Virus record (IMG/VR): IMGVR_UViG_3300000116_000263
Location: 1-22,586 of that record
Direction: 5' to 3' (one strand)
DNA: 22,586 bases
Origin: a virus
In this document: piece by piece, positions 1,845 to 22,586 of the stretch
Numbering within the stretch: the first letter of the stretch is position 1
Layout: every line of letters starts with the position of its first letter
Notes under the pieces: generated by a model
What the model saw: only the letters and a program-made list of their open reading frames with translations
Database searches by the model: none
Told to the model about the DNA's origin: nothing
Made by a program: the position numbers and the translations under genes

Positions 1845-2312
1845 ATGAAAAGATTTATTACATTTTTACAAGAATCACCATCGTCTCCCTGCGGATGTAG
1901 GCACTATTTTGCAAAGTCACCAACAGCCGGGATTGGTTCTTTTGCATCCGAAGATGTACATGAAAATGAAATGCTATTTCCTTTTTTAAAGCGTTCCCGA
2001 GATGCAAAAGATGGTGTTACCTTTGATCGGACCGATTTTTGTAGACTTACAAATCATTCATATACTCCGAATACTATGATGATTCCATTCGGAAAAGACA
2101 TGTATGCCGTTACCATCAAAAGGGTTGGTGAAGGAGAAGAATTTACAATTAACTATGAGGACATACTTAAAACGGTTATGTCAACGGATCGTTACTTTGA
2201 AATAAAACCAAAGGTTCTTCGAATCACGCCTGGATTTGAAGACATGCACATAGAAGATGATACACATAAAAATATACTGGACGAGATTGAATATTTCAGG
2301 TCAATGAGATAA
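1845..2312 (+). CDS. SET-domain protein, putative protein lysine methyltransferase with a capsid-targeting-like N-terminus
   Basis: 155 aa. SET-domain hallmarks are in order: a G-x-G (G29-I-G31) in AGIGSFASEDV, an N-H-S-x-x-P-N motif at 70-76 (AdoMet pocket and pseudoknot), and E-E-F-T-I-N-Y at 98-104 ending in the catalytic-type tyrosine Y104. SET enzymes transfer methyl groups from AdoMet to protein lysines; no substrate can be read here. The first 11 residues, MKRFITFLQES, precede the SET core and align with the T4 capsid-targeting sequence MKTYQEFIAEA, with L-Q-E before S as a gp21-type cleavage step. The gene lies between gp4 and other virion genes, 17 nt after gp4, with no clear Shine-Dalgarno. 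Head packaging and injection into the host are inference. Confidence 0.75.
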   Translation: MKRFITFLQESPSSPCGCRHYFAKSPTAGIGSFASEDVHENEMLFPFLKRSRDAKDGVTFDRTDFCRLTNHSYTPNTMMIPFGKDMYAVTIKRVGEGEEFTINYEDILKTVMSTDRYFEIKPKVLRITPGFEDMHIEDDTHKNILDEIEYFRSMR

Positions 2313-10645: not shown

Positions 10646-12130
10646 TCACCCAAAATAACCATTATCTTTTAGCCACTGGAGAATATCTTCCCGACTAGGC
10701 ATTTTAAACTGGGGATTTGGGTTATATGGTCCTAATGGTTTTGGGGGTGTTGCATTCTTCGCCGGTGAGATCTCTTCACCAAATTGACGCCGCCGGCGCC
10801 GCATTCCGCCTGTTCCACCAAGCATCTTGTCTCTACCTTTAATACCACCTTCGTTACCCATGACTGGAGACATACCACTACCGACTGCATTAGCGACTTG
10901 CTCTTTGAAGTTCTTTGGCATGGCAGTTAAGTCTCTACCTGTTGCAAACTTTTCTTCTTCATCTCGAAGAATTTTATTAAGGAAAGACTTAATCTGCTGT
11001 GCATACTTGTCAACAAATTCCTGTGAAGCCTCTGTGGTTCCGGGTGGTTGTTGTCTTGGCATTTCTTTGGGAGCAGCAGGATCTTGTAGTAGTTTCGATG
11101 GTACAGGTTGACCTTGCTGGGGACCTTCCTGTGGAGGCATCATACCGGGATTAGGCATTCCTGATTTAGGTTCTTCGGGTGTCTCTGGAGCCATGTCCAT
11201 GTACATGTTGTCCTCTTCTGGACGAAGACGATGCCGTTCTATATCTTTAATTCCCATTCTTTTTCCGAAACCATCAGCAGGTTCCATCGCTCTTGGGCCT
11301 TCAGTTTCTGATGGGGGACCACCACCGGGCATACCCATACCACCCATTGGAGGTGCCGAGGCTGCTTGTCGCGGTTGTGGTGGTAGACCTGGTTGATCAT
11401 CCATTGATGGCATCTTAGGCATCTGTCCACCCATTGGAGGCATCGGAGGTCTCTGTCCACCCATTGGAGGCATCTTAGGCATCTGTCCACCCATTGGAGG
11501 CATCTTAGGCATCTGTCCACCCATTGGAGGCATCGGAGGTCTCTGTCCCATCTGAGGCATCGGAGGTCTCTGTCCCATCTGAGGCATCGGAGGTCTCTGT
11601 CCCATCTGAGGCATCGGAGGTCTCTGTCCCATGTCCATAGAAGGTGAGGGTGCCTGTCCTGTGGATGGTGGTGGTGGTAGTGATGGTTTTCTTACCATAC
11701 CTTCAAGGTCACTAAACCCAAGATCAGCACTTAATGCACCGGGCTGTCCTGTTTCAAGTGGACGAACAGCACCGGGTTTCATCATACTACCCATTCCGGG
11801 TGATGTTTTGTCCATAGCATCACGAAAGGATTGCAAAGTTCTTTTTGCTAATTTGGTTGCTTCGTCTTCTTCGTCCTCTTGTGGCATCCTATACTGTTCA
11901 GTAAGAGATTTTGCCTTGTTTAGTATAGACTGTACCATTTTTTTTCCTTGAGTGGACATAGTTTTTTGTTCCTTTTTCATCATGGTAAGTGTTTCTTTCA
12001 TACCTTGTTTTGACATGAGGTGAAGATTTTTTGGTTCAATTGAGTCTCCGGTTGACATTGTAGCAACCATTGAAAGGAGTTCTTGCTCCTCTTTATTGAA
12101 TAGTTTAAAGTCTTTCTTACTAAGTTTCAT
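10646..12130 (-). CDS. Pro/Met-rich repeat protein of unknown function
   Basis: 494 aa, not recognised. The N-terminus (1-110) is charged and helical, with Lys- and Met-rich segments (KETLTMMKKEQKTM). A long disordered Pro/Met/Gly/Gln region follows, with tandem repeats at residues 167-240 (see the repeat entry). A further Pro-rich part reaches to about 370, then a helix near 370-420 (QEFVDKYAQQIKSFLNKILR) and a basic RRRRR segment near 455. The C-terminal end (FKMPSREDILQWLKDNGYFG) looks like a short binding peptide. The start codon overlaps the previous stop (TAATG), so it is coupled to the 12130-12630 gene. A scaffold or linker role in the virion is possible but nothing proves it. Confidence 0.7.
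   Translation of the reverse strand: MKLSKKDFKLFNKEEQELLSMVATMSTGDSIEPKNLHLMSKQGMKETLTMMKKEQKTMSTQGKKMVQSILNKAKSLTEQYRMPQEDEEDEATKLAKRTLQSFRDAMDKTSPGMGSMMKPGAVRPLETGQPGALSADLGFSDLEGMVRKPSLPPPPSTGQAPSPSMDMGQRPPMPQMGQRPPMPQMGQRPPMPQMGQRPPMPPMGGQMPKMPPMGGQMPKMPPMGGQRPPMPPMGGQMPKMPSMDDQPGLPPQPRQAASAPPMGGMGMPGGGPPSETEGPRAMEPADGFGKRMGIKDIERHRLRPEEDNMYMDMAPETPEEPKSGMPNPGMMPPQEGPQQGQPVPSKLLQDPAAPKEMPRQQPPGTTEASQEFVDKYAQQIKSFLNKILRDEEEKFATGRDLTAMPKNFKEQVANAVGSGMSPVMGNEGGIKGRDKMLGGTGGMRRRRRQFGEEISPAKNATPPKPLGPYNPNPQFKMPSREDILQWLKDNGYFG
11411..11632 (-). repeat. in-frame tandem repeats, four 27-bp and four 30-bp units
   Basis: Residues 167-240 of the Pro/Met-rich protein consist of four MGQRPPMP-type 9-residue units followed by four MGGQxPxMPP 10-residue units. 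The DNA units are nearly identical, suggesting recent expansion by slippage or unequal recombination and a likely length-variable region. Confidence 0.9.
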
Positions 12131-12630
12131 TAGACTGTCCTACTTTTTGTCGGATAGAAGGTTTTTGGTAGGAAATCATCAGAAGATACAACATTACTTG
12201 GCTGCATATCCATTGCAATACCATCTAGTTCTCGGAGGATTTGTTGACTTTTTTCTGTTCTATCAGCACTCGCAGGAAGGAGAAGCATTTTGTCAATCCG
12301 GTAAGCAAGTTCTGCCTTTTTGGGATCACTATCGTCCATCCTTTTAAGAGTTTCTTTATATGCCTTTGCTTGTTCTGGATTTACTACCATGTTACCAGAA
12401 AGACTTCCGAAATTTTGATTCAACCCATCAATAAAATTTGTAAAGTTGTATGTGGTTTTAATTATATGATTCCTAACAAAATCAAAAGAATTAGGATTAT
12501 CAACCCTGACAGTCGAACCCCTCATACTTGCGATTGAGCCTGCCTTATCTGATACACCGGGTGCTGGTACAGAAAGAACCTTCTCGTTGAGATCAACTTG
12601 CTCAGATAGGAATGTCTTATAGTCCTTCAT
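12130..12630 (-). CDS. unknown protein with T4 capsid-targeting-like N-terminus
   Basis: 166 aa, body not recognised. The first residues MKDYKTFLSEQ match the T4 internal-protein leader MKTYQEFIAEA in spacing: M-K-x-aromatic-x-x-F-(L/I)-x-E. L-S-E is then a possible gp21-type cleavage step and L-N-E a second one at about residue 16. The rest has one helical region (about 45-70, RNHIIKTTYNFTNFIDGLNQ), a helical middle (85-140) and a polar C-terminus. It lies between an 87-aa small gene and the Pro/Met-repeat gene, overlapping the latter's start by one base. Packaging into the head is inference from the leader alone. Confidence 0.6.
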   Translation of the reverse strand: MKDYKTFLSEQVDLNEKVLSVPAPGVSDKAGSIASMRGSTVRVDNPNSFDFVRNHIIKTTYNFTNFIDGLNQNFGSLSGNMVVNPEQAKAYKETLKRMDDSDPKKAELAYRIDKMLLLPASADRTEKSQQILRELDGIAMDMQPSNVVSSDDFLPKTFYPTKSRTV

Positions 12631-12640
12631 ATAAATTCTT

Positions 12641-12904
12641 TCAGATCAAAGAGATTAAGTTGGTACAGGTTGTTCTGATTCCAGCGGCCGCGGTTAGTCC
12701 AAATATCTTTTGGTGGTGGACAGGTAGAATGGTTCCTGCTGCAACATTTTGGAACTGAATTACTTGACCGTCATGAGTTGTGACACCAATAGAACCAGTA
12801 TTTCCAGTAGAACCATTGTAGATTCCAAAACCATAGACTGTTTGATCTCCGGTAACACCTGCGGGTGAAACGATTCCGGATGCTGTTTTGTACATTTCTC
12901 TCAT
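12641..12904 (-). CDS. small unknown, probable virion-associated protein
   Basis: 87 aa. Not assigned to a named family. It is beta-rich and uncharged, with VYGFGIYNGSTGNTGSIGV, DGQVIQFQNVAAGTILPV and a C-terminal TCTNLISLI. The AAGTILPV block followed by a short hydrophobic end is a pattern I associate with small phage structural proteins. GGAG at good spacing precedes the ATG, and a late-like box lies 34 nt upstream. It heads a three-gene minus-strand unit (12904 to 10646). It has no capsid-targeting-like leader, unlike the next gene. Confidence 0.6.
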   Translation of the reverse strand: MREMYKTASGIVSPAGVTGDQTVYGFGIYNGSTGNTGSIGVTTHDGQVIQFQNVAAGTILPVHHQKIFGLTAAAGIRTTCTNLISLI

Positions 12905-12938
12905 TGCATTCTCCTAATAATGGAAAGTTCTTTATGAT

Positions 12939-12946
12939 TATGTATA
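12939..12946 (-). promoter_or_regulatory. late-promoter-like box TATACATA for the 12904-10646 unit
   Basis: Minus-strand TTATACATAA, 34 nt before the ATG at 12904. It is one of a divergent pair with the box at 12983. Confidence 0.5.
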
Positions 12947-12982
12947 AGAGCAATTAGTTTGATTTTCTGAAGGATTCTCTAT

Positions 12983-12990
12983 TATACATA
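12983..12990 (+). promoter_or_regulatory. late-promoter-like box TATACATA for the 13026 gene
   Basis: TTATACATAA on the plus strand, 35 nt before the ATG at 13026, which has a CGGAGAA ribosome binding site. It is divergent to the box at 12939, with about 36 nt between them. Confidence 0.5.
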
Positions 12991-13025
12991 ATGTAAATCG
13001 TTTAACCAGAACAACGGAGAAATAT

Positions 13026-14042
13026 ATGACGAACGAAAATTTATACTACAGAATGCTCAGAGAGGAATTGCGATCAACAAGAGATTATATATTCTCTCTA
13101 TCCGAACAAAGTTTTGCTGTCCCTCCAGGCCTTGGAGACGGTGGACGTAAACCCGGACAAGAACCTGATTTTGGTGTTTCTCCGTGGCCTCCTGTTGATA
13201 GTCCTCCCATCACTCCTCCTATGGTAAAACCAAATTTCAAACCTGTTATGATTGATCCGAGTACAGGGTATCCAGAAGGAGTTAAACCGCCACAATTTGG
13301 AAACACAATTCCGATCGATCAAATCCCTGTCTGGTTGCAAGATTTTCTCACACAACCTAGAACAAATCCGAATCCACCCCCTGCAACCCTCCCTGCTTAT
13401 TTCCCTAACGGAATTCCCGAAGGTTACGAATTCCATATTATGTTCAGCGGTGTAGGTGGAGTATTTGCAATGTATGCGCTCGTTGATCCGGACGGAAATC
13501 CAATTAACCTTTTTGCTGAGTGGAACGGCACCGTAAGTACTTTCCCACCAACAGCAACAGTAGTTAGGTTTGAAAATGGAGTCCCAATAGTATTCGTTCC
13601 TGCTGGTGCCCCTGCGATGCCCGGGTATCCCGGACCTGCCTTTTATCACTTAGGAGGCGCATATATCAACTTCCTTCCCGGTGCATTCCCCGGTGTGGGT
13701 TTCCCCGTATGGTATACAGGTGGACGATGGTATACGCAAGGTGCTGACGGACAGCCAAATCCGTGGACTCCAAATAATCCCGGTGATGAGGCAGTTCCAC
13801 CAGAGGGAGACATCGAAGACAGTTGGTGGATGGGTCTACCTGAGTGGATGAGGATATCCCTTATTGCAGCAGCCACAGCAGGCGCATTGTGGTTGATAGG
13901 TACTGCTCTTGGAGATTGGTTGGGTAACAATGAACATACGAATATTGCCGGTGGTGGACCACCAGTTCCTCCCGATCCTGATGATTCCGACGAAGGCGGT
14001 GACGGCGACGACGGCGACGACGGCGGCGAAGGTGGACCATGA
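13026..14042 (+). CDS. Pro/Gly-rich protein with one membrane segment and acidic tail; leader with L-x-E steps
   Basis: 338 aa, family not recognised. The leader (1-27) is helical and contains MLREEL and FSLSEQS, two possible (L/I)-x-E cleavage steps as in other proteins of this block. Residues 32-120 are Pro-rich and disordered; 120-240 form an aromatic beta region (YEFHIMFSGVGG, DPDGNPINLF, WYTGGRWYTQGADGQP). One clear membrane-type segment spans about 276-298 (ISLIAAATAGALWLIGTAL), followed by an Asp/Gly-rich tail (DDSDEGGDGDDGDDGG), coded by GC-rich short repeats. The central YEF...DGNPI part resembles residues in the 17072-18049 protein, so the two may be distant paralogues. A terminator follows. 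Confidence 0.65.
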   Translation: MTNENLYYRMLREELRSTRDYIFSLSEQSFAVPPGLGDGGRKPGQEPDFGVSPWPPVDSPPITPPMVKPNFKPVMIDPSTGYPEGVKPPQFGNTIPIDQIPVWLQDFLTQPRTNPNPPPATLPAYFPNGIPEGYEFHIMFSGVGGVFAMYALVDPDGNPINLFAEWNGTVSTFPPTATVVRFENGVPIVFVPAGAPAMPGYPGPAFYHLGGAYINFLPGAFPGVGFPVWYTGGRWYTQGADGQPNPWTPNNPGDEAVPPEGDIEDSWWMGLPEWMRISLIAAATAGALWLIGTALGDWLGNNEHTNIAGGGPPVPPDPDDSDEGGDGDDGDDGGEGGP

Positions 14043-14073
14043 TCCCCCAAAAATAATTTTAAATTTTAGCAAG

Positions 14074-14098
14074 AAACCCCTCATAAGAGGGGTTTTTT
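14074..14098 (+). terminator. intrinsic terminator after the 13026 gene
   Basis: AAACCCCTC (14074-14082), loop ATAA, GAGGGGTTT (14087-14095), and a run of T to 14098. Confidence 0.9.
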
Positions 14099-14121
14099 GT
14101 GTCTTCTTTTTGCTCTAGTTT

Positions 14122-14129
14122 TATACATA
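14122..14129 (+). promoter_or_regulatory. late-promoter-like box TATACATA at the head of the non-coding stretch
   Basis: TTATACATATAAC on the plus strand lies after a terminator and just before the hairpin-rich stretch 14164-14375, over 270 nt from the next start codon. This suggests a transcript with a long structured leader, or a separate small RNA. Confidence 0.5.
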
Positions 14130-14130
14130 T

Positions 14131-14375
14131 AACAGTGAGTAAAACAAATACATACTTTAACTCGAAGAAACGACGACGCCTTAAGTGGTGCCGTCGTTTC
14201 TTCACACATACAAATACAGGCAGTCGGGCGGATAGTAGATCGTTTACAGAACGTAACTCTATCCATGTGCATCACAGGTGATCGTGTTTTCATCTGTGTT
14301 AAGGAATTTCGCTACCTTACGACCGTCACACAATAGACAGCCTCCCACTCAGAGTCATCGCGGTGGGAGGTTGTC
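14131..14375 (+). ncRNA. candidate structured non-coding RNA or long 5' leader
   Basis: No convincing ORF lies between 14043 and 14405. Five hairpins can be drawn by eye in a row: 14164-14203 (12 bp, a mismatch, then 4 bp, 6-nt loop); 14230-14264 (6 bp outer, 4 bp inner); 14273-14298 (9 bp with one G-T); 14300-14319 (5 bp); 14336-14375 (13 bp with one G-T, 14-nt loop). The last ends 19 nt before the AGGAGA ribosome binding site of the 14406 gene. A terminator stands before the stretch and a late-like box at 14122 could start it. It is either the leader of the 14406 gene or a separate RNA; it does not fold as a tRNA and I recognise no known family. Confidence 0.5.
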
Positions 14376-14405
14376 ATATATATATCATAAGAACAGGAGA
14401 CTTTG

Positions 14406-15521
14406 ATGGCTAAACTAAACGAAGGTGATGTAATTGAAGGAATCTTTGCTCTTGCACTCTCGGAGATATTTGCATATGGTAAAATTGATAAGCAAAGACT
14501 GAACAAAGCAAGAACCAAAATTGAACCCGAGATGTTCAAGGATGGTCGTTATGAGGTTGTAATCCGAGATGAACTTGGTGGGGGTAGGGGGTTTCAAACC
14601 AATAGTTTCCCACCAGACATCTTTGTAGTCAAGTTGATTCTCAGATTGAAGCCTGCATCGGTTGAAGGTGCATATGGTAAAAAGTATAATGTGTTGTTCA
14701 AGAGTTCAAAGGACATTGGTAACATTGATTCTAAAATTGATTCTATGATCAAACATGCAAAAGGCTTCAGAGACAAACTTCTTAGAATACGAGACAAATT
14801 CCTCAAGAACAACCGAACCGACAAAGTACTGTTCGAAATCTATGCTGATGGTATCGCTGGAGAAACATCTGGTGGTAAAATTAAAGCCGACATTGATCTA
14901 CGCATTTTTGCAAACGGTAAAAAGCAATCCGATATACACATTCCATACTCGCTCAAGTCGGGAAGCAAAACACTATCCAACCTGTCTCCCTACAAAGGAA
15001 TGATGGCGATGATGGATAAGTTTGGACTTGAGTATGTACATGAAGAAGAGTTTGCATCAAACTTGGGACCTGGTGGTGCTTTGGAAAGAGCAAAAACCCC
15101 AGAACAAAAGAAGAAGAAAGTCCAGATGCTCACTGACATGTATGATGGATTCATTGAAGGTATGGACAAAGAAGGCAGAGGCAGTGCTGCATTCACCAAG
15201 ACTGCGTTTGAAATAATATCTGAAGCGGCATTTGGTGATGACTTTGCTACTGTAGTTGACTTAGACAAATCAACTGTAAAATTCATGGATCCAAAGTACA
15301 CAGACGAGTTGCTCAAGTCCGCACTAAAGAATCGTAGATATGCTAAAGCCGGTATCATAGGTTCCGGAGACAACAGAAAACTTGCTGTGTATTTTGATGA
15401 CATCAACAAGAACGAGAATCATCTCTTCACATACAGAAAGAAGTTCCGTGTGTCGGGTAGCGGTAGTATGGAGTTGAAACTATATGTCGAAGCCGGTAAG
15501 ATGATTTACTCTAAATTGTGA
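14406..15521 (+). CDS. conserved phage protein of unknown function, possible nuclease-like fold
   Basis: 371 aa from the ATG at 14406 (a TTG directly before it is also in frame; AGGAGA at 14395-14400 fits the ATG). The N-terminus AKLNEGDVIEGIFALALSEI is a pattern I recall from uncharacterised proteins of marine T4-like phages. The central part, DIDLRIFANGKK followed by IPYSLKSGSK (about 163-190), is compatible with a D...x-L-K arrangement of a PD-(D/E)XK fold, but I would not call it a nuclease on this alone. A Lys-rich helix (TPEQKKKKVQMLTDMYDGF) follows and the C-terminus is beta-rich. No signal peptide and no capsid-targeting-like leader. It sits behind a 240-nt structured leader. Confidence 0.6.
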   Translation: MAKLNEGDVIEGIFALALSEIFAYGKIDKQRLNKARTKIEPEMFKDGRYEVVIRDELGGGRGFQTNSFPPDIFVVKLILRLKPASVEGAYGKKYNVLFKSSKDIGNIDSKIDSMIKHAKGFRDKLLRIRDKFLKNNRTDKVLFEIYADGIAGETSGGKIKADIDLRIFANGKKQSDIHIPYSLKSGSKTLSNLSPYKGMMAMMDKFGLEYVHEEEFASNLGPGGALERAKTPEQKKKKVQMLTDMYDGFIEGMDKEGRGSAAFTKTAFEIISEAAFGDDFATVVDLDKSTVKFMDPKYTDELLKSALKNRRYAKAGIIGSGDNRKLAVYFDDINKNENHLFTYRKKFRVSGSGSMELKLYVEAGKMIYSKL

Positions 15522-15596
15522 CTTGTCTAGTATTCGTCTGGTACTGTAAATATTAAAATTATGGATATGAATAGTAATAAAAAATGTATCCAACCA

Positions 15597-16313
15597 TCAA
15601 CCATTAATATTATCTTGAATCCATTCTTTATAGTAAAGTATGCTTGCACAACCATTCTCGTAAATGATTCCGTTTTTGTATTGTAAGTAGGACACAACAC
15701 CTACCAATTCATTGTCTAAAGTAAAGACTCCTCCGCCAGAATCACCAAACCAAATAGTGCCTTTTAATGGTAGCATTATCATAAACTGCGGTTTGTCTAT
15801 CAACCTACCATAGTACCAAAACACACCATAGTTGCTAAATCTTTTTCTTCCTGTACCATATCCGACAGTGGTAAGATTCATATGTTTGGACGGATTGTCC
15901 TTCAGAGCAACAGGTTGCTCGTCTGAGAGACTTTCGAGGACTAATATTGAAATATCATGGTTGAGTGCGTCTGGAATATATTCTGGGTGATAAATGACTT
16001 CAGAGACACAATAAGAATCACCATCATATTCGATAAAAACCAACTCATCGTATTCTCTTCCTTCTGAAACATGCGCGGCAGTCAGCACCAAATTTGATGC
16101 TATCAAAACTCCGCTTCCTATTACATCATTTTCAAGTGTACAAATCGAACCAACGAATGGGTATGGATCAAATAGATAGTCATCCACGTATGTGTGACTT
16201 TTTGGTTTTTCTATTATTACTTGTAGTTGGGGTTGAGGTGCTACTACTTTCGCTGCACTGCAACCCAGAACACATAATGTAGTTGCTAATAGATATGAAA
16301 ATAAATTTCTCAT
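15597..16313 (-). CDS. trypsin-like serine protease, predicted lipoprotein
   Basis: 238 aa. The N-terminus MRNLFSYLLATTLCVLGCSA is a lipoprotein signal with lipobox V-L-G-C18. The rest is a chymotrypsin-fold (S1) protease with an intact triad: H81 in VLTAAHV, D120 in LNHDISILVL and S192 in WFGDSGGGVF. The expected product is an acylated protease facing the periplasm or the outside of the host, not a virion enzyme. It is monocistronic, with an exact TATAAATA box 9 nt before the ATG and no obvious Shine-Dalgarno. A phage-coded lipoprotein protease is unusual. Roles could be superinfection exclusion or cutting a host envelope protein; these are guesses. Transfer from a bacterial host is plausible. 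Confidence 0.85.
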   Translation of the reverse strand: MRNLFSYLLATTLCVLGCSAAKVVAPQPQLQVIIEKPKSHTYVDDYLFDPYPFVGSICTLENDVIGSGVLIASNLVLTAAHVSEGREYDELVFIEYDGDSYCVSEVIYHPEYIPDALNHDISILVLESLSDEQPVALKDNPSKHMNLTTVGYGTGRKRFSNYGVFWYYGRLIDKPQFMIMLPLKGTIWFGDSGGGVFTLDNELVGVVSYLQYKNGIIYENGCASILYYKEWIQDNING

Positions 16314-16322
16314 TCCATATAT

Positions 16323-16330
16323 TATTTATA
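16323..16330 (-). promoter_or_regulatory. exact T4 late box TATAAATA before the protease gene
   Basis: Minus-strand TTATAAATAA ending 9 nt before the ATG at 16313. At normal late-promoter geometry the mRNA leader would be only a few nucleotides long. Confidence 0.55.
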
Positions 16331-16370
16331 AGCAAAATGGCTGAAATCAGAGTTTTTTTAGGCTTTTATT

Positions 16371-16673
16371 TCAACTTGGTTTCAAATACCCATGCGGACT
16401 GAAGTTTTGTGCCCTGTCGATATTCTTTGACGCATCTTTGTTGATTGCAGCACCACTTTTGATACTGTCCATTCTTTTACTGAAACCGGGACACATCTTG
16501 TCAACCGTCAGGGTTGCATCTGCACCTGCTTGAAACATACCAACAGACTTCTTGACGGTATTTTCGTTACACTCTGGACAGGGTTCATTGGTTGGTGTGT
16601 CTCTTTTGTCTACGCTCAAGAGAGTTTCGAACTGATGATCACATGACTCACAATTAAATTCATAAATTGGCAT
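16371..16673 (-). CDS. FmdB-type zinc ribbon protein
   Basis: 100 aa. It begins MPIYEFNCESCDHQFE, the signature of the FmdB / CxxC putative regulatory family, with zinc ligands C8-x-x-C11 and C32-x-x-C35 (PCPECNE). The C-terminal 55 residues are polar, with CPGFSKRMDSIKSGAAINKD, and carry no known motif. The family is small and its biochemical role is not well defined; copies are common in marine T4-like phages. AAGGAAA precedes the ATG. It lies downstream of the 16695 gene on the same strand, with a 21-nt gap, and probably shares a transcript with it and the 17072 gene. Confidence 0.85.
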   Translation of the reverse strand: MPIYEFNCESCDHQFETLLSVDKRDTPTNEPCPECNENTVKKSVGMFQAGADATLTVDKMCPGFSKRMDSIKSGAAINKDASKNIDRAQNFSPHGYLKPS

Positions 16674-16694
16674 TATATATTTTCCTTATTAATT

Positions 16695-17057
16695 TTACTT
16701 CGGTTTATGGGTGTGGTATCCACCCATCTCGGGGTACGGGAACATTAATGGGGAGACACTGTATGTACCGTTTCCGTCCAGCGCAAACCACCCGGAATTG
16801 AATATTTCGTACTTCCCCGCCCAGTCGGGAATAGGTGGTGTTCGGGGAGGAGCGCCAATATCACCCCCGAAAGGATTATTAGGATCTCCCGATCCCTCTT
16901 CGGGTTTGTTTGGATTTGACGATGGTGGATTATCGAAGATTGGTATAACAAAGCGAGGAGGTTCCGCAGCAATGGCACCACCATCCATAGGCTTCGGAAG
17001 CATTAAACCCAATTGTTCTTGTAAATATTCTTCTATGATTTGGTTAATGTTTGCCAT
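16695..17057 (-). CDS. small Pro-rich protein with an L-x-E leader, unknown function
   Basis: 120 aa, not recognised. The leader MANINQIIEEYLQEQLGLML contains I-I-E and L-Q-E steps like the other leader-bearing proteins of the region. The rest is Pro/Gly/Asn-rich and probably disordered to about residue 80, then a short aromatic segment (GKYEIFNSGWFALDGNGTY) and a histidine-containing end (GGYHTHKPK). The start has AAAGGA before it. It lies 14 nt downstream of the 17072-18049 gene, whose C-terminal Trp/Gly/Pro-rich composition it resembles, and upstream of the FmdB-type gene. Confidence 0.55.
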   Translation of the reverse strand: MANINQIIEEYLQEQLGLMLPKPMDGGAIAAEPPRFVIPIFDNPPSSNPNKPEEGSGDPNNPFGGDIGAPPRTPPIPDWAGKYEIFNSGWFALDGNGTYSVSPLMFPYPEMGGYHTHKPK

Positions 17058-17071
17058 TTTTATATTTTCCT

Positions 17072-18049
17072 TTAAAGATTATCCTCTGACCAGTCGTCCC
17101 ACCAATCAGAATTTTCAGGCCAGGAAGGAAATCCCCCCTCACCATTTGGTGGTGGGAACCCGAAAGTCTCTGAGTGCCAGTTAAAGAAATTATTCCACGT
17201 ACTTCGGTGTCGCACCCATCCGTAATTTGAGCCTGGACCTCCAAATGGTATGGTTAAGTTCAATTGGATTGCCCAATCATTCGCACCGGGACGAGAGACT
17301 GATTGACCTGGTATAGATCCTGGCGGTATAAAACTACCACCGGGTACTAGGGGAATATTTGCTACGAGAGGATTTCCATTCACATCAAACTTAATACCCA
17401 ACGAAGCGGACCATCCCGTAGGATAACTGACTGCATCACCGGAGGCCTGCCCACCCGTATATGGGTTCGTCCATGTTGCCGTAGGATTAGTTGCAGTCGG
17501 ATCACCACCAGTAAACCAGTAGTTTCCTACATGATCTTGATATACCCATTGTATTGAACCATTTGGTAGGAACCGTGCAATTGTAAGATTAGGAATTAGA
17601 ATAGGATTACCAGATGAGTTTGTGAAAAGTAGAGTCCACATACCATTCGCATAGGCAAGATTGTAGCCCATGAACTCGTATGTGAATGTTGGAGTTACCA
17701 CCATCTCACCATTAATCTCTACCAGAACCCATTCGACTTGATATATGGTAATGATTGGATTACCATCCGCATCAACTTCCCCAGTGTCATATTCAAAATA
17801 GTCAGGAAAACCATCTCCATTTTCGTCTGGACCTGGTACAAGTCCCTGTGGAATTTCTACCGGAGGAATTTCATTTTCCGGAACTTCCAAATTTGTATCT
17901 GGTTTAATTTCCGGAGTAACTTCGGGCACGGAAGGTTTGGATTGAATAGAATCTCCTACCTGAAGCAAAACATCAAGGTCGCTTGGGTTGGATTCTACTG
18001 TTTGTTCTCTAAGAACCTGAAGCATATAATTTTGGAATGGAGTTTTCAT
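17072..18049 (-). CDS. Pro/Gly-rich protein with EF-hand-like loop and L-x-E leader
   Basis: 325 aa, not assigned to a family. The leader MKTPFQNYMLQVLREQ starts with MKT plus aromatic and ends in L-R-E-Q, a possible prohead-protease step. Residues 37-70 are Pro/Glu-rich. A canonical 12-residue calcium loop follows at 75-86: D75-E-N77-G-D79-G-F-P-D83-Y-F-E86, with a second Asp-rich DADGNP at 92-97. Beyond it is an aromatic, Gly/Asn/Pro-rich beta region to the acidic Trp-rich end (SDWWDDWSEDN). The segment YEFMGYNLAYANG...GNPI resembles the 13026 protein. GAGGA precedes the ATG and a late-like box lies 27 nt upstream. Confidence 0.6.
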   Translation of the reverse strand: MKTPFQNYMLQVLREQTVESNPSDLDVLLQVGDSIQSKPSVPEVTPEIKPDTNLEVPENEIPPVEIPQGLVPGPDENGDGFPDYFEYDTGEVDADGNPIITIYQVEWVLVEINGEMVVTPTFTYEFMGYNLAYANGMWTLLFTNSSGNPILIPNLTIARFLPNGSIQWVYQDHVGNYWFTGGDPTATNPTATWTNPYTGGQASGDAVSYPTGWSASLGIKFDVNGNPLVANIPLVPGGSFIPPGSIPGQSVSRPGANDWAIQLNLTIPFGGPGSNYGWVRHRSTWNNFFNWHSETFGFPPPNGEGGFPSWPENSDWWDDWSEDNL

Positions 18050-18076
18050 GAAGTCCTCGCTTGGTTTGTTGTATTA

Positions 18077-18084
18077 TATGTATA
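18077..18084 (-). promoter_or_regulatory. late-promoter-like box TATACATA for the 18049-16371 unit
   Basis: Minus-strand TTATACATATAAT, 27 nt before the ATG at 18049 and just downstream of the terminator at 18105-18126. The box is nearly palindromic. Confidence 0.5.
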
Positions 18085-18104
18085 ATGAAATATGATTCAA
18101 TAAA

Positions 18105-18126
18105 AAACCCCACCGAAGTGGGGTTT
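18105..18126 (-). terminator. intrinsic terminator with UUCG tetraloop after the 18150 gene
   Basis: AAACCCCAC (18105-18113), loop CGAA, GTGGGGTTT (18118-18126), a perfect 9-bp stem. On the minus strand the loop is C(TTCG)G followed by a T run, so it terminates the 18800-18150 transcript. The tetraloop and stem core repeat those at 6548-6573. Confidence 0.85.
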
Positions 18127-18149
18127 CTTTTTTGAGTTTTGTTTCTGAA

Positions 18150-18800
18150 TTAAATTTCATCGAAGGGTACGAAACTTCCTCCGAGTTCTCCACCCTCTCC
18201 GTACGGGAAGTTTGGAGCGATCGTCGTAGACGGGACTCTGAATCCCCCTTGCCACGGGATTTGGTTTTGATTAAAGAGGCTTCCAAGGATTTCTGCAAAG
18301 TTGTCGTAGAATCCTTGTTCAGATCCTGGCACACCACCGGAAGGCACGAAGCCCTCAATTTCTCTAATTCCTACACTACCACCGTTGTCGTAGAACTCGT
18401 AACCAAACTGTCGGAACAATCTACCATACCGTTGCATGGCGCCTTCGAGAGCCTTTCCTGAGAGGCTCCCATCAAGTATACTTGCTAGGATATTGTAAAT
18501 TCCCGACATTCCCGTGTCAGCGCCACCACTGGATGGAAAACCTCTAAGAAGTTCCAGCAGATCGTTCATGGTGCTTGGACGCAGGAACCCTCCTGCTCCT
18601 CCGGCCCCTCCGACACCACTACCGGCATCAATGGCTCTCTTTATAGCATTTGATATCACTTTACTAAAGCCAGTGATTTCGTCCAACTGTCCGTATTCGG
18701 TAATAGAGTCTCTATATCCCTTTTGATATGCTTCTTGAAGTTCTTTGTTTTTAATAAAGTTTCTTGTACTCTCAGAGAGTTCGTTCCAACTATGTTGCAT
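18150..18800 (-). CDS. unknown protein of the leader-bearing family (YQxGYxD type)
   Basis: 216 aa from the ATG at 18800, which has AAAGGA before it; an upstream in-frame ATG at 18878 would add 26 residues, overlaps the promoter region and has no good ribosome site. The N-terminus carries L-S-E, then LQEAYQKGYRDSITEYGQLD, matching the 19670 and 21454 proteins, then ISNAIKRAIDAG, matching the 21981 protein. The 22-nt DNA coding for this last match (18625-18646) is identical, on the other strand, to 22051-22072. The body is Gly/Ala-rich with MNDLLELLRG, again recalling LLELLQQG in the 20803 and 21981 proteins, and ends in a Gly/Pro-rich tail. Function unknown; candidate packaged internal protein. 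Confidence 0.65.
   Translation of the reverse strand: MQHSWNELSESTRNFIKNKELQEAYQKGYRDSITEYGQLDEITGFSKVISNAIKRAIDAGSGVGGAGGAGGFLRPSTMNDLLELLRGFPSSGGADTGMSGIYNILASILDGSLSGKALEGAMQRYGRLFRQFGYEFYDNGGSVGIREIEGFVPSGGVPGSEQGFYDNFAEILGSLFNQNQIPWQGGFRVPSTTIAPNFPYGEGGELGGSFVPFDEI
18625..18646 (-). repeat. 22-nt inverted identity with 22051-22072
   Basis: The minus strand here is identical over 22 nt to the plus strand at 22051-22072, both coding for the IKRAIDA segment after the leader. Flanking bases differ. Confidence 0.9.
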
Positions 18801-18841
18801 TTTACAATCCTTTATGTGTTTATTTTTGGTTAATGCTAGTT

Positions 18842-18849
18842 TATATATA
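18842..18849 (+). promoter_or_regulatory. possible late-type box TATATATA before the 18879 gene
   Basis: TTATATATAATACAT lies 29 nt before the ATG at 18879, in the same setting as the TTATACATA boxes but with T in the variable position. The gap between this gene and the divergent 18800 gene is AT-rich on both strands. Confidence 0.3.
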
Positions 18850-18878
18850 ATACATACATATTCACGGAGAAGGAACAA

Positions 18879-19430
18879 ATGTCAACACCATTTCAAACAT
18901 ATCTTTTAGAGGCAATCAAAGATTACGACACTCCTCTTGGTGTGTACTATGATCCAATTCGTGATCAAAGTGTAAAGGGCGATGATCCTTACTTCAGTCC
19001 AAACGAAAAACCAAACTTAGGTCCAAGACCTGAGTTTGATTCGGAAATTAATCTACTTAATAACAATCCCGACCTTTTTGCTCGATACCTTATACATTTA
19101 CTGGGTGATGAGTACCCTGAAGGCCTTCTTATAAGGGTTCAAGAATATCTTTTAGGATTACCAGAAAACGTAGAAGATTGGCAAGAATATTTTAATGGAG
19201 TAATTGCGGGATTACTCAAACCTCTTGGTTTCTTGGAACGGGTGGGTTTGAATACGCCGAAAATTATTGGCGGTCCGGGTGGAATCGAGGGAATAATAGA
19301 AACACTTGTCGATATTTTGAATGATCTACTTGATAGTCCCTTTGGTGGATCAGAATACCTACAATGGCACTTTAACCAATTCCTACAAGAACTCATAGAT
19401 TTCCTTTCAGACTACGAATATGGTGGTTGA
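18879..19430 (+). CDS. unknown protein of the leader-bearing family
   Basis: 183 aa, not recognised. The leader MSTPFQTYLLEAIKDY shares the TPFQ(T/N)Y start with the 17072 protein and contains L-L-E-A, a possible gp21-type cleavage step. After a polar, Pro-rich stretch (20-55) the body is helical and rich in Leu and acidic residues: DLFARYLIHLLGDEYPEGLL, VEDWQEYFNGVIAGLLKPLG, a GGPGG hinge, then GIIETLVDILNDLLDSPFGG and an amphipathic C-terminal helix ending DYEYGG. The GG end is shared in kind with the 20193 protein (LYGG). GGAGAAGG before the ATG is a strong ribosome site. Confidence 0.6.
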   Translation: MSTPFQTYLLEAIKDYDTPLGVYYDPIRDQSVKGDDPYFSPNEKPNLGPRPEFDSEINLLNNNPDLFARYLIHLLGDEYPEGLLIRVQEYLLGLPENVEDWQEYFNGVIAGLLKPLGFLERVGLNTPKIIGGPGGIEGIIETLVDILNDLLDSPFGGSEYLQWHFNQFLQELIDFLSDYEYGG

Positions 19431-19443
19431 AAAACTTTTTACT

Positions 19444-19451
19444 TATAAATA
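19444..19451 (+). promoter_or_regulatory. exact T4 late box TATAAATA for the 19479-20086 gene pair
   Basis: TTATAAATAAAC, 27 nt upstream of the ATG at 19479, which has AAGGAG before it. Confidence 0.65.
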
Positions 19452-19478
19452 AACTAGACAAACCTCAAGGAGAAACCC

Positions 19479-19673
19479 ATGTCATTTTACATCAACGATT
19501 TTAAACAACACCTTCAGAACATTACCGAAAATGTAGATCAACCTTACGATGAACAAGCATCGCGTAAAAAGGCTGGTAACATGAGAAGCATCGAAGAAAC
19601 CTATACTTCTATGCCACGAAAAACAATGCCTTCGACTCTAATGGAACAACTTAGAAACAGAGGAATCAAATGA
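19479..19673 (+). CDS. small basic unknown protein with leader-like N-terminus
   Basis: 64 aa. MSFYINDFKQHLQNITENV resembles the aromatic/FK-type leaders of the neighbouring proteins, with I-T-E as a possible cleavage step. The rest is polar and basic (ASRKKAGNMRSIEETYTSMP and a C-terminal MEQLRNRGIK). Small, basic and late-expressed fits an internal head protein, but this is inference. Its TGA overlaps the next ATG (ATGA), so the two genes are translationally coupled. It is directly preceded by an exact late box and a good ribosome site. Confidence 0.6.
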   Translation: MSFYINDFKQHLQNITENVDQPYDEQASRKKAGNMRSIEETYTSMPRKTMPSTLMEQLRNRGIK

Positions 19674-20086
19674 ACTTTAATCAACAATTAGCAGAAGCAT
19701 ACCAACAAGGTCGTCGTCAGGCTCTAAATGAGCAAGGCATGATGTCCAACATGAACGCCACTTCTTTTCCACAAGATGGTGGAGGTTTAGTTGGAGGTGG
19801 TAATCAATATCCTTCAATGATGTCTAACAACAATAGTGGTACTGCTGTTCCTAATTACCAATCAGGCAGAGGTCCAATTGGACCCAGGACCGTCCTGGGT
19901 GATCCATTGGTAAATCCAACCACACAAACATTACAAAATATAATGATGAATTGGGGTCCCGTTCCGAAGGACCTATTGCCTTGGCAGCAATATGCATCGG
20001 GAGACTTGAATATGGACGGGGTTATTGATGGTCAAGATCTTGCAATAGAACTGGGCAACATGTCCGGCGAGACCGGAGACGGTTAA
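19670..20086 (+). CDS. unknown protein with YQxG leader and a dockerin-like calcium loop
   Basis: 138 aa. The leader MNFNQQLAEAYQQGRRQALN, then EQ, has L-A-E-A and L-N-E-Q steps and the AYQQG motif of the 18150 and 21454 proteins. A disordered Gly/Asn/Ser/Pro middle (24-90) follows. The C-terminus has a classic dockerin/EF-hand loop at 112-123: D112-L-N114-M-D116-G-V-I-D120-G-Q-D123. Only one such half is present, whereas true dockerins have two, so calcium binding is likely but cohesin binding is not implied. The start overlaps the stop of the preceding gene. A strong terminator follows. Confidence 0.65.
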   Translation: MNFNQQLAEAYQQGRRQALNEQGMMSNMNATSFPQDGGGLVGGGNQYPSMMSNNNSGTAVPNYQSGRGPIGPRTVLGDPLVNPTTQTLQNIMMNWGPVPKDLLPWQQYASGDLNMDGVIDGQDLAIELGNMSGETGDG

Positions 20087-20111
20087 TCTTAAACCCACAC
20101 AACACTAACAG

Positions 20112-20145
20112 AAAGAGAGACTGGTTTTCCAGTCTCTCTTTTTTT
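20112..20145 (+). terminator. strong intrinsic terminator after the 19479-20086 pair
   Basis: A 13-bp stem AAAGAGAGACTGG (20112-20124) / CCAGTCTCTCTTT (20129-20141) with loop TTTT and a T run to 20145. Its T run abuts the next late-like box. Confidence 0.93.
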
Positions 20146-20152
20146 ATACATA
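20145..20152 (+). promoter_or_regulatory. late-promoter-like box TATACATA for the 20193-22586 unit
   Basis: TTATACATAAAAT directly after the terminator T run and 40 nt before the ATG at 20193, which has AAAGG as ribosome site. Confidence 0.55.
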
Positions 20153-20192
20153 AAATAACGAAGGACATATATAGAAATGAAAGGTTCCACAC

Positions 20193-20783
20193 ATGCACTC
20201 ATTTAAAGAATTCATCCAACTAGACGAGGTCGGCGGTATTGGTAAGGGAATCTTCAACTTTATCAAGAATATAGATCCAGATGCTGTTATTGATATGGTT
20301 GGTTCATATTTTAACAAGCCCGGAAGAGTCGTAACGAACGTCATCGACGATACAACAAATGTTGGCTTTGCTCCCGCTCGTTTAAATCTATTTAACAAAG
20401 CAGATGAAATTCTGGATCATCTGGATTTTCTTGCAAACGGAGTATACGATAATCTGGGTAGCCTCTTTAGTGATTTTTTCGCAATGCTAGGTGAAGGATT
20501 TACTGAGTCTTTCGATGCATTTAGAATGATTCTAAGAAACTTAATTGCTGATCCGGATTTGTTAAAACCCGATGCTGCCGATTCGATGCTTGACTATCTT
20601 TTCGATATGGACATGATTATTGAGGTTTCAGAAGACGGCACACAGATGTTTTTCTCCCATAACGGCGCAACCCCCGCACAAAACGAGGTAATAGACACAT
20701 TCTTCAATGGGGCACTAGCAAGTGTTGATGGTCTTTTTGAAGCATTAGTCGATGCCTTTCCAGATTCACTTTACGGTGGATAA
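20193..20783 (+). CDS. unknown helical protein of the leader-bearing family
   Basis: 196 aa. The leader MHSFKEFIQLDEVGGIGKG has FKEFI as in the T4 type (YQEFI), an L-D-E-V step, and then a GGIG segment seen again as AAGIG in the 21981 protein. The body is acidic and helical, with many Phe, Leu and Asp: ADEILDHLDFLANGVYDNLG, LFSDFFAMLGEGFTESF, DSMLDYLFDMDM. It ends with a helix and LYGG. No membrane segment is convincing. No family recognised. It is the first gene of a plus-strand unit with the 20803, 21454 and 21981 genes. Confidence 0.6.
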   Translation: MHSFKEFIQLDEVGGIGKGIFNFIKNIDPDAVIDMVGSYFNKPGRVVTNVIDDTTNVGFAPARLNLFNKADEILDHLDFLANGVYDNLGSLFSDFFAMLGEGFTESFDAFRMILRNLIADPDLLKPDAADSMLDYLFDMDMIIEVSEDGTQMFFSHNGATPAQNEVIDTFFNGALASVDGLFEALVDAFPDSLYGG

Positions 20784-20802
20784 TCATACCAATGAGGTTG
20801 CT

Positions 20803-21435
20803 ATGAATTTTAAAGAACATCTAAGAAAAGAATTGAATGAAAATTTGCTACGAGCCTTGATAAAGGGTTCGATGAATCTTTTTGATTATGCAGATGACTT
20901 CATTCCACCCGGTGGATTTAACTCTCCTCTGAGAAAAAAAGCCCGAGAACTCGACGCAACAAACCTAGATGATTTAATTCCTCCTGTTGGTACTTTTGGT
21001 CAAGTTATAGCAAGACTAAGGGGCATTAAAAAACCTGACTGGTTTACTGGAAGTGATCAGGCCTGGTCGAATCTTATTGGTGAACTCGTTCGAGACTTAC
21101 CCATCATGGGAATTACACCAAACCATCCAACACTACAAATGATTTCCCAATTGATGAATTGGATGACTTCCGGGGGATCAATCAACAATCTTCTTGAACT
21201 ACTACAACAAGGACCTTTTGGTCAATTCTTCACCACCTCCATGCCGGGAAATCTCTTTCGCATGGTTCAAAACGCTGATGGAGTTTATGAATTTGGACTA
21301 AATCCAAGTGTCACAGGCGGTTTGAGTTTGGATGACTATTTTAACCTGAACAATATTAGTCCTGATGATCAAGTAACAATTACTGGATTAAATTCAATAT
21401 TCGAATTTCTTAATAATCTAGGACTTACTGGGTAA
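20803..21435 (+). CDS. unknown protein, paralogue of the 21981 gene
   Basis: 210 aa from the ATG at 20803 (GAGG before it); an earlier frame opening at 20752 overlaps the preceding gene and is not preferred. The leader MNFKEHLRKELNENL contains L-N-E-N. From about residue 118 to the end it aligns with the 21981 protein: NHPTLQMISQLMNWM against NHPLAEMINQLIDWI, then NNLLELLQQGPFGQFFTTS in both, then DQVTI and a closing LNNLGLTG against LNGLNITA. The DNA 21182-21258 is 76/77 identical to 22330-22406 while flanks differ more, pointing to recent exchange. The N-terminal halves are unlike each other. Function unknown. Confidence 0.65.
   Translation: MNFKEHLRKELNENLLRALIKGSMNLFDYADDFIPPGGFNSPLRKKARELDATNLDDLIPPVGTFGQVIARLRGIKKPDWFTGSDQAWSNLIGELVRDLPIMGITPNHPTLQMISQLMNWMTSGGSINNLLELLQQGPFGQFFTTSMPGNLFRMVQNADGVYEFGLNPSVTGGLSLDDYFNLNNISPDDQVTITGLNSIFEFLNNLGLTG
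21182..21258 (+). repeat. 77-bp near-identical repeat, copy 1
   Basis: Matches 22330-22406 at 76 of 77 positions (A at 21241, G at 22389). It codes for NNLLELLQQGPFGQFFTTS and neighbours. Confidence 0.95.
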
Positions 21436-21453
21436 ATTTTAAAGGAAACTACA

Positions 21454-21945
21454 TTGAACAAGTATAATAAATATAATCAACTGCAAGAGTCATACCAACA
21501 AGGTTACTATGATATAATGAATGAGTCAGCGCCAGGATTTATAAAGAATGTGGTAAAGAATGCCATCAAAGGCATCAGAGGAGTGCCTAAGCGTCCTGTG
21601 CGACTTGACATTCCCAAAGGTGTCACACCCGCCCGATTCAACTGGGGTAGTAATCAGGGATGGCAAGCCTTTCTGAACGCCCTGGAATGGGTCACGGGCG
21701 GAAACCTGTTGAACTCGTCACGATATCGCCTTCTCGTCTCGTTTATTACAAATCCCACTGTGGGTAATTTACAACTTTTGAATCAAGTGCTTGGTCAATG
21801 GGGTATTGTTCTTCGGGCAAACAATAATGGTATACTCGAATTACAGGGTGTGCTTATGCCGAGCAACCCAAATTATCCGTGGATGTCGGCAATACGCGAT
21901 ATGTTCATGGAATGGAACATTCCATGGCCTCCACCGGGAAGTTGA
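21454..21945 (+). CDS. unknown protein of the leader-bearing family (YQxGYxD type)
   Basis: 163 aa with a TTG start, chosen because AAAGGA lies at good spacing before it and the resulting N-terminus NKYNKYNQLQESYQQGYYDI matches the 18150 and 19670 leaders (LQE-(S/A)-YQ-x-GY). Possible (L/I)-x-E type steps are L-Q-E-S and, less regular, M-N-E-S. A basic helix follows (FIKNVVKNAIKGIRGVPKRP), then a Trp/Asn-rich body with GSNQGWQAFLNALEWVTGG, SRYRLLVSFITNPTVGNLQ, QLLNQVLGQWGIVL and a Pro-rich C-terminus. Local base composition is slightly more GC-rich than the genes on either side. Function unknown. Confidence 0.6.
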   Translation: MNKYNKYNQLQESYQQGYYDIMNESAPGFIKNVVKNAIKGIRGVPKRPVRLDIPKGVTPARFNWGSNQGWQAFLNALEWVTGGNLLNSSRYRLLVSFITNPTVGNLQLLNQVLGQWGIVLRANNNGILELQGVLMPSNPNYPWMSAIRDMFMEWNIPWPPPGS

Positions 21946-21946
21946 T

Positions 21947-21991
21947 ATGAATTTTAAACAAAATATAAAAGGAGAATTGTATGAACTTTAA
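21947..21991 (+). CDS. 14-codon mini-ORF resembling a leader peptide
   Basis: An ATG two bases after the previous TGA opens a 14-residue frame, MNFKQNIKGELYEL, that looks like the leaders MNFKEHLRKELNEN and MNFKEYLRTELDEA of the flanking paralogues. It overlaps the next gene's start and contains that gene's AAAAGGAGA ribosome site. It has no strong ribosome site of its own. It could be a remnant of a duplicated leader or a short coupling ORF. Confidence 0.35.
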   Translation: MNFKQNIKGELYEL

Positions 21992-22586
21992 AGAATACCT
22001 AAGAACAGAATTAGACGAGGCCGCGGGCATTGGTAGATTTTTAACGAGGTCTATAAAGAGAGCCATTGATGCGGGGGACCTGAACATGCCTATCGGTGGT
22101 TCATTTTCACCAACCCAGGTCTTGGTTAATAGCACATTATCAAGATTAGAAGTTATGGGAAGACCTAGATGGTGGAAAGGAATCGGTTCTGGAGCAGACA
22201 ACATGATCTGGACTGGTGGTCTTAAAAAACTGGTTCGAGGGTTGTCCAACCTAGTAAGTGGACTTCCAGCAAACCATCCGTTAGCGGAAATGATTAACCA
22301 ACTAATTGATTGGATACCCGGTGGAGGTGTCAACAATCTTCTTGAACTACTACAACAAGGACCTTTTGGTCAATTCTTCACCACCTCCGTGCCGGGAAAT
22401 CTCTTTACTTATACTTACGACACTTCGACTGGGATTATTCAATTCGGATTAAATACAGAGATTACAGGCGCTCAGACTTTGCAAGGCTATATTCTGAATA
22501 ATAATATCAGTGCTGCTGATCAAGTCACAATAAATGCAATGGACCTTATCTTCAATTTCCTCAATGGTCTTAATATTACTGCATAA
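21981..22586 (+). CDS. unknown protein, paralogue of the 20803 gene
   Basis: 201 aa, complete, with the stop at the last bases of the window. The leader MNFKEYLRTELDEAAGIG has the L-D-E-A step, then LTRSIKRAIDAG, as in the 18150 protein. The middle (about 37-90) is specific, with MGRPRWWKGIGSGADNMIW. The C-terminal half aligns with the 20803 protein, including NNLLELLQQGPFGQFFTTS, and ends with DQVTINAMDLIFNFLNGLNI. It combines a leader segment shared with one neighbour and a C-terminal domain shared with another, a clear mosaic. AAAAGGAGA is a strong ribosome site. Function unknown; the unit may continue beyond the window. Confidence 0.65.
   Translation: MNFKEYLRTELDEAAGIGRFLTRSIKRAIDAGDLNMPIGGSFSPTQVLVNSTLSRLEVMGRPRWWKGIGSGADNMIWTGGLKKLVRGLSNLVSGLPANHPLAEMINQLIDWIPGGGVNNLLELLQQGPFGQFFTTSVPGNLFTYTYDTSTGIIQFGLNTEITGAQTLQGYILNNNISAADQVTINAMDLIFNFLNGLNITA
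22051..22072 (+). repeat. 22-nt inverted identity with 18625-18646
   Basis: Partner of the segment in the 18150-18800 gene; it codes for IKRAIDA in the 21981 protein. Confidence 0.9.
22330..22406 (+). repeat. 77-bp near-identical repeat, copy 2
   Basis: Direct repeat of 21182-21258 with one mismatch, in the same reading frame of the paralogous gene. Confidence 0.95.

Follow-up and report, generated by a model that had tools for sequence, protein, structure and literature searches.

Leader-bearing genes of the fragment

The window analysed here, the whole 22,586-nucleotide stretch of IMG/VR record IMGVR_UViG_3300000116_000263, is a 22.6-kb fragment from a marine T4-like phage and encodes a tail tube cap, the head closure protein gp4, gp2, a tail tube, a baseplate hub, gp32, gp33 and an exonuclease. 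The closest named phages, judged from a gp32 comparison, are pelagiphages and cyanophages, with <60% identity across the entire protein. From position 12130 to its end the fragment carries a series of genes whose products have unlike bodies but share a short, propeptide-like N-terminal leader, as is the case for T4-type proteins with a capsid-targeting sequence (CTS). A preliminary description of the sequence had named twelve such genes, and all are open frames from the claimed starts, with both of the described leader types and, in most cases, a Shine-Dalgarno-like sequence ahead of the gene. Class A leaders follow the pattern aromatic-x-x-aromatic-L-x-E (e.g. MSTPFQKYLIE/Q, where the slash marks the predicted cut), class B leaders the pattern LxxAYxxGRxxALNE/Q, and an (L/I)-x-E motif is found in all 12. 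None of the twelve bodies gave a match above cut-off in PHROG or Pfam, and sequences related to the bodies are confined to a few IMG/VR contigs. One of these is G004, a 118.5-kb contig of a close relative that encodes gp21, gp22 and gp23; it holds syntenic counterparts for almost all twelve genes plus additional leader genes. Leader genes of G004 adjoin gp23 (64574, 65733 and 66634) and are also located at the far contig end (111676, 112496, 115494, 116328 and 117533).

The gene at 12130-12630 (minus strand) has the class A leader MKDYKTFLSE/Q, and orthologues in G001, G004 and L142 are 91-100% identical in the leader and 39-48% in the body. The leader gene at 13026-14042 is on the plus strand, with YYRMLRE/E ... 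FSLSE/Q and a single strongly hydrophobic segment at about residues 277-295. Three further genes are encoded on the minus strand, i.e. 16695-17057 (class A, IIEEYLQE/Q), 17072-18049 (class A, MKTPFQNYMLQVLRE/Q, with the calcium-loop-like motif DENGDGFPD in the body) and 18150-18800, whose leader combines classes A and B (HSWNELSE/S...LQEAYQKGYRDSITE) and recurs as the same composite between gp23 and gp3 in L056. The remaining genes are all on the plus strand: 18879-19430 (class A, MSTPFQTYLLE/A); 19479-19673, a short, basic protein of leader type (MSFYINDFKQHLQNITE) that is kept in G004; 19670-20086 (class B, AEAYQQGRRQALNE/Q), with a dockerin-like loop, DLNMDGVIDGQD; 20193-20783 (class A, MHSFKEFIQLDE; compare MKTFKEF of T4 IPI), statistically the weakest case; 20803-21435 (class A, MNFKEHLRKELNE); 21454-21945 (class B, QLQESYQQGYYDIMNE/S), with a TTG start; and 21981-22586 (class A, MNFKEYLRTELDE/A), which runs to the contig end and is a paralogue of 20803.

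The set is larger than the dozen or so proposed. A SET-domain protein encoded at 1845-2312 (plus strand), between gp4 and gp2 and outside the range considered before, starts with the class A leader MKRFITFLQE/S. PF00856 matches this protein at 28.2 bits (cut-off 22.4), and the SET motifs NHSxxPN and Y are present as TNHSYTPN at residue 69 and YED at 104; its AlphaFold model, with a predicted local distance difference test score (pLDDT) of 38, was too poor for use. The gene occurs in G001 and G003 and is not found at the gp4-gp2 position in G004, G005, G006 or L007. From these features it is a putative accessory enzyme with a leader, inserted between gp4 and gp2.

The bodies of the leader proteins are not the small basic bodies of T4-type internal proteins; most are acidic (isoelectric point 4-5) and rich in Gly, Pro and Asn. 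EF-hand-like loops (DxDGDGxxD), a pattern chosen post hoc, were found in 8/21 leader proteins of G004 vs 3/105 of its other proteins (p=2e-5), and such calcium-loop-like motifs could be a hint that folding takes place outside the cytoplasm. The loops are also ~12 times denser in the G004 leader proteins (L023, L026, L028), with exceptions that include gp23 and a prohead-core gene.

The genes at 12641, 14403, 15597 and 16371, interspersed in the locus, are without a leader. Of these, 15597-16313 encodes a trypsin-like serine protease whose start (MRNLFSYLLATTLCVLGCSA) resembles a lipoprotein signal. The sequence TATAHATAAT, which resembles the T4 late promoter, occurs four times in the window (12937, 12983, 16321 and 18842) vs 0.1 expected; three copies stand immediately upstream of 12641, 13026 and 18879, and one before 15597.

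Distinctness and mobility of the leaders

The leaders were scored with a profile of 11 columns. As the G004 training set holds orthologues of the window genes, the orthologues or family of each gene were left out of training. Other phages supplied a background of 1,548 N-termini, against which thirteen leader genes, i.e. the twelve and the SET gene, were set; 12 of the 13 fell within the top 5% vs 2/16 of the other window genes. The Fisher combined p is ~1e-12 for the thirteen, which are partly dependent, 20803 and 21981 being paralogues. Weak spots are 20193, outside the 5% line (9.6%), and 19479, with ITE instead of LxE. For class B, a hidden Markov model built with both the window sequences and their syntenic relatives excluded was run over 2,087 proteins and placed W19670 (independent E-value 3e-5), W21454 and W18150 directly below the known members. 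The leader-profile check proposed with the preliminary description thus turned out in favour of the leaders. Likewise, LxEQ within residues 2-40 was observed in 14/126 G004 proteins vs 3/313 of the later 40-residue bins (p=4e-6). Plain [LI]xE was rejected as a test motif, since it is found in one third of the inner 40-residue bins of G004; consequently, P1' (the residue after the cut) and the adjacent positions are needed. A tblastn search of the class B leader against named phages gave one match only, judged to be chance, and the matches of a DNA-pattern scan for this leader outside the clade were mid-protein or outside any open frame.

Conservation is higher in the leader than in the body for 10/12 families (p=0.0015; e.g. 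91% vs 39%). The W19670 leader was found again on dissimilar bodies in G004 and L014, and also within a large G004 protein; leaders have moved between bodies. The cytidyltransferase-family protein of G004 has MKSYREIQANIRE/Q. A 913-residue protein of the same contig (L028:12496-15237) combines a leader with a cytidyltransferase-family domain and DUF192, ends in an HNH-like part and has more xxEQ steps between its domains, as if it were a polyprotein to be cut inside the head.

Link to the major capsid protein, the head cluster and virion proteins

The window itself is without gp21 and gp23 genes. G004 encodes a gp21-type protease (E=1e-38), and its gp23 has two (L/I)xE steps a little before the conserved DPILISLVRRAMP block, LLE/N inside the conserved ENQEK stretch and LQE/Q downstream of it. 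The gp23 of G013 has LNE/Q at the corresponding step, and LQE/Q or LNE/Q is the clade's last (L/I)xE before the conserved body. Because of this position, LQE/Q appears the likeliest maturation site of the G004 gp23, and the tetrapeptide is identical to that of the leaders. G004 thus encodes both a gp21-type protease and a gp23 with a compatible site. Across lineages, the P1' of the leaders may track that of gp23; Q in both here, as against A or T in S-SM1 and T4, is suggestive, with few lineages having leaders near gp23.

Leader genes immediately adjoin gp21 or gp23 in G004, G013, L055 and L056. Among other phages, 9/16 N-termini scoring at ~10 bits or more belong to gp23 or to genes between portal and gp23, the latter mostly at the gp67/68 position, with several of the nine mutually orthologous. 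When the profile trained on G004 leaders was applied to T4, gp24, itself a gp21 substrate, ranked first of 251 open reading frames (ORFs).

The unannotated, Pro/Met-rich protein encoded at 10646-12130 (minus strand) has internal xxEQ sites, and its residues 368-437 resemble the gp23 propeptide, cleavage site and N-arm. Compared with the gp23 of the clade, this protein and its relatives share the segment KEQVANAVGSGMSPVMGNEGGIKG / QEQANNIVGGGMSPVVGSEGEIKG (E=7e-8 and 1e-5), which is absent from the gp23s of HTVC008M, S-SM1 and T4. The segment amounts to a copy of the end of the gp23 propeptide of this clade together with the cleavage site and N-arm.

The strongest support for a head-targeting function comes from published virion data on the cultured cyanophage S-CREM2, for which 52 virion proteins were identified by mass spectrometry (Table 3 of PMC10665884). 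Read at the Table 3 coordinates, the starts of three enzymes are MKRFDAFLTE/E (kinase), MKNFSSFLTE/A (cytidylyltransferase) and MKDFDSFLEE (S-adenosylmethionine (SAM) hydrolase), and ORF13 starts with MKDLHSFLTE/Q; the counterparts in the window are MKDYKTFLSE and MKRFITFLQE. With a leader profile trained without S-CREM2, the three enzymes took ranks 1-3 of 203, the chance of the top three all being detected non-structural proteins being 0.002. Similarly, 5/7 of the regular-expression leader matches in S-CREM2 were detected by mass spectrometry (p=0.013). A cytidyltransferase (T4-GC190) was also detected in virions of S-SM1 by mass spectrometry (PMC3037559), and this protein starts with MKKFSAFLNE/A. 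These virion enzymes, including the Cas9-like nuclease, have the same MK-x-F-xx-FL-x-E leader and bodies unrelated to those of the window. The nuclease, ORF12 of S-CREM2 (L143:7704-10313), was detected in virions and has the leader-like LRFASFMAE/A at residues 17-25, which makes it a possible head cargo. No description of a capsid-targeting leader for cyanophages was found in the literature searched, the coverage of which mostly excluded subscription journals.

Proposed function, alternatives and implications

In combination, these results make it probable, and we hold this with good confidence, that the leaders are capsid-targeting propeptides, the bodies being cut free by a gp21-type protease, packed in the head and mostly ejected into the host. 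Late in infection, the amphipathic N-terminus would draw each protein into the prohead core, where a gp21-type protease would cut after (L/I)-x-E, in this clade mostly before Q. The mature body would remain within the head alongside the DNA, and on infection most bodies would probably enter the next host cell together with the DNA. Docking and cut are proposed from sequence and from the T4 capsid-targeting rule (PMC9026906). For the window proteins we infer cleavage, location in the head, ejection and all functions.

The T4-type interpretation given in the preliminary description holds in part, the proposed injection with the DNA and effector role of the proteins being putative. Head targeting and gp21-type cutting are well supported by the relatives, by gp23 and by the S-CREM2 and S-SM1 virion proteomes, but no profile is shared with T4 IPI-III or Alt. 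The likeness is one of design: a short aromatic N-terminal propeptide, (L/I)-x-E at about residues 6-20, unlike bodies and accessory genes, with MHSFKEF and MYTFKEF of this clade resembling MKTFKEF of T4 IPI. However, there are ~20 leader genes in G004 vs 4 in T4, P1' is mostly Q in place of A, a second leader type (AYxxGRxxALNEQ) is present, and the bodies are mostly acidic where those of the T4 internal proteins are basic. The leader set of the window is real and linked to the head; it probably works like the T4 CTS and is an expanded marine variant of it, distinguished by the residue preferred at P1' and by the additional class of leader. In the giant phages phiKZ and SPN3US, the head proteins that are ejected are likewise numerous and have propeptides cut by the prohead protease (PMC5694885), albeit with another protease specificity and longer propeptides.

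Several points weigh against this interpretation. T4 IPI-III and Alt ranked only 120-230 of 251 in the scan with the G004-leader profile. In HTVC008M, the best-known related pelagiphage, no clear N-terminal enrichment of the leader was observed, and the expanded leader set is consequently not general to Kyanoviridae. ALREQ is frequent among gp23s with a further LxE/A or LxE/T site downstream of it, so that LQE/Q in gp23 is by itself no proof of cutting there. A Fisher test on S-CREM2 across score thresholds was borderline (p ~0.05), because few of its proteins have the leader, and the S-CREM2 authors cautioned that non-structural proteins are possibly contaminants of the CsCl band, leaving cargo or contamination open (PMC10665884). 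Finally, virion presence is shown for leader proteins of the cultured relatives S-CREM2 and S-SM1, and the window phage is known from its sequence.

The alternative that survives best, though we consider it unlikely, is that the proteins are prohead-core parts similar to T4 gp67, gp68 and gp22, with leaders that dock and bodies that aid head assembly or size and are then shredded or expelled, undelivered. Such a role would fit the leader genes in the gp20-gp23 cluster of relatives, the profile matches to gp67/68-position proteins in other phages, the several xxEQ sites and gp23-like segment of the 10646-12130 protein, and the low-complexity, Gly/Pro-rich character of part of the bodies, and some window leader proteins may indeed be core parts and not cargo. 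Still, one or two N-terminal sites are the rule among the window leader proteins, and their syntenic locus is distant from the head cluster of G004. The accessory bodies are numerous, unlike and patchy among relatives, with enzymes among them (the SET protein of the window, and cytidylyltransferase and DUF6267 of G004), and the leader enzymes of S-CREM2 persist in mature virions. Far less probable is a signal that directs sorting to, or assembly at, a different virion site (the head surface, baseplate or tail tube), in which case the LxE steps would be incidental to an amphipathic helix. Tail and baseplate genes do adjoin the locus, and many bodies resemble extracellular proteins and have calcium-loop-like motifs, but the leader goes with the gp20-gp23 genes and the gp23 site and not with tail genes, and the tail and baseplate genes of the window score as background except for one tail tube protein at 3.7%. 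That ordinary amphipathic N-termini were mistaken for a motif is the least credible of all. The short motif and the frequency of [LI]xE by itself speak for it, but the combined p was obtained with orthologues excluded and the virion enzymes of S-CREM2 were recovered independently.

If the leaders are capsid-targeting propeptides, a tentative extension is modular delivery, in which swappable leaders would load ~20 different proteins per virion, including the SET protein as a candidate protein methyltransferase and a calcium-loop-rich set that perhaps folds after head exit, e.g. in the calcium-rich periplasm. T4 Alt, which is delivered at infection, offers a parallel for the SET protein. A leader read from sequence alone would then predict the phage proteins carried in the head, which would answer the question of the S-CREM2 authors whether virion enzymes are cargo or contamination and would apply to many proteins of unknown function in marine T4-like phages. 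Ocean phages would thereby come under the T4 capsid-targeting rule, with a cargo set that is far larger and includes a candidate enzyme for protein modification.

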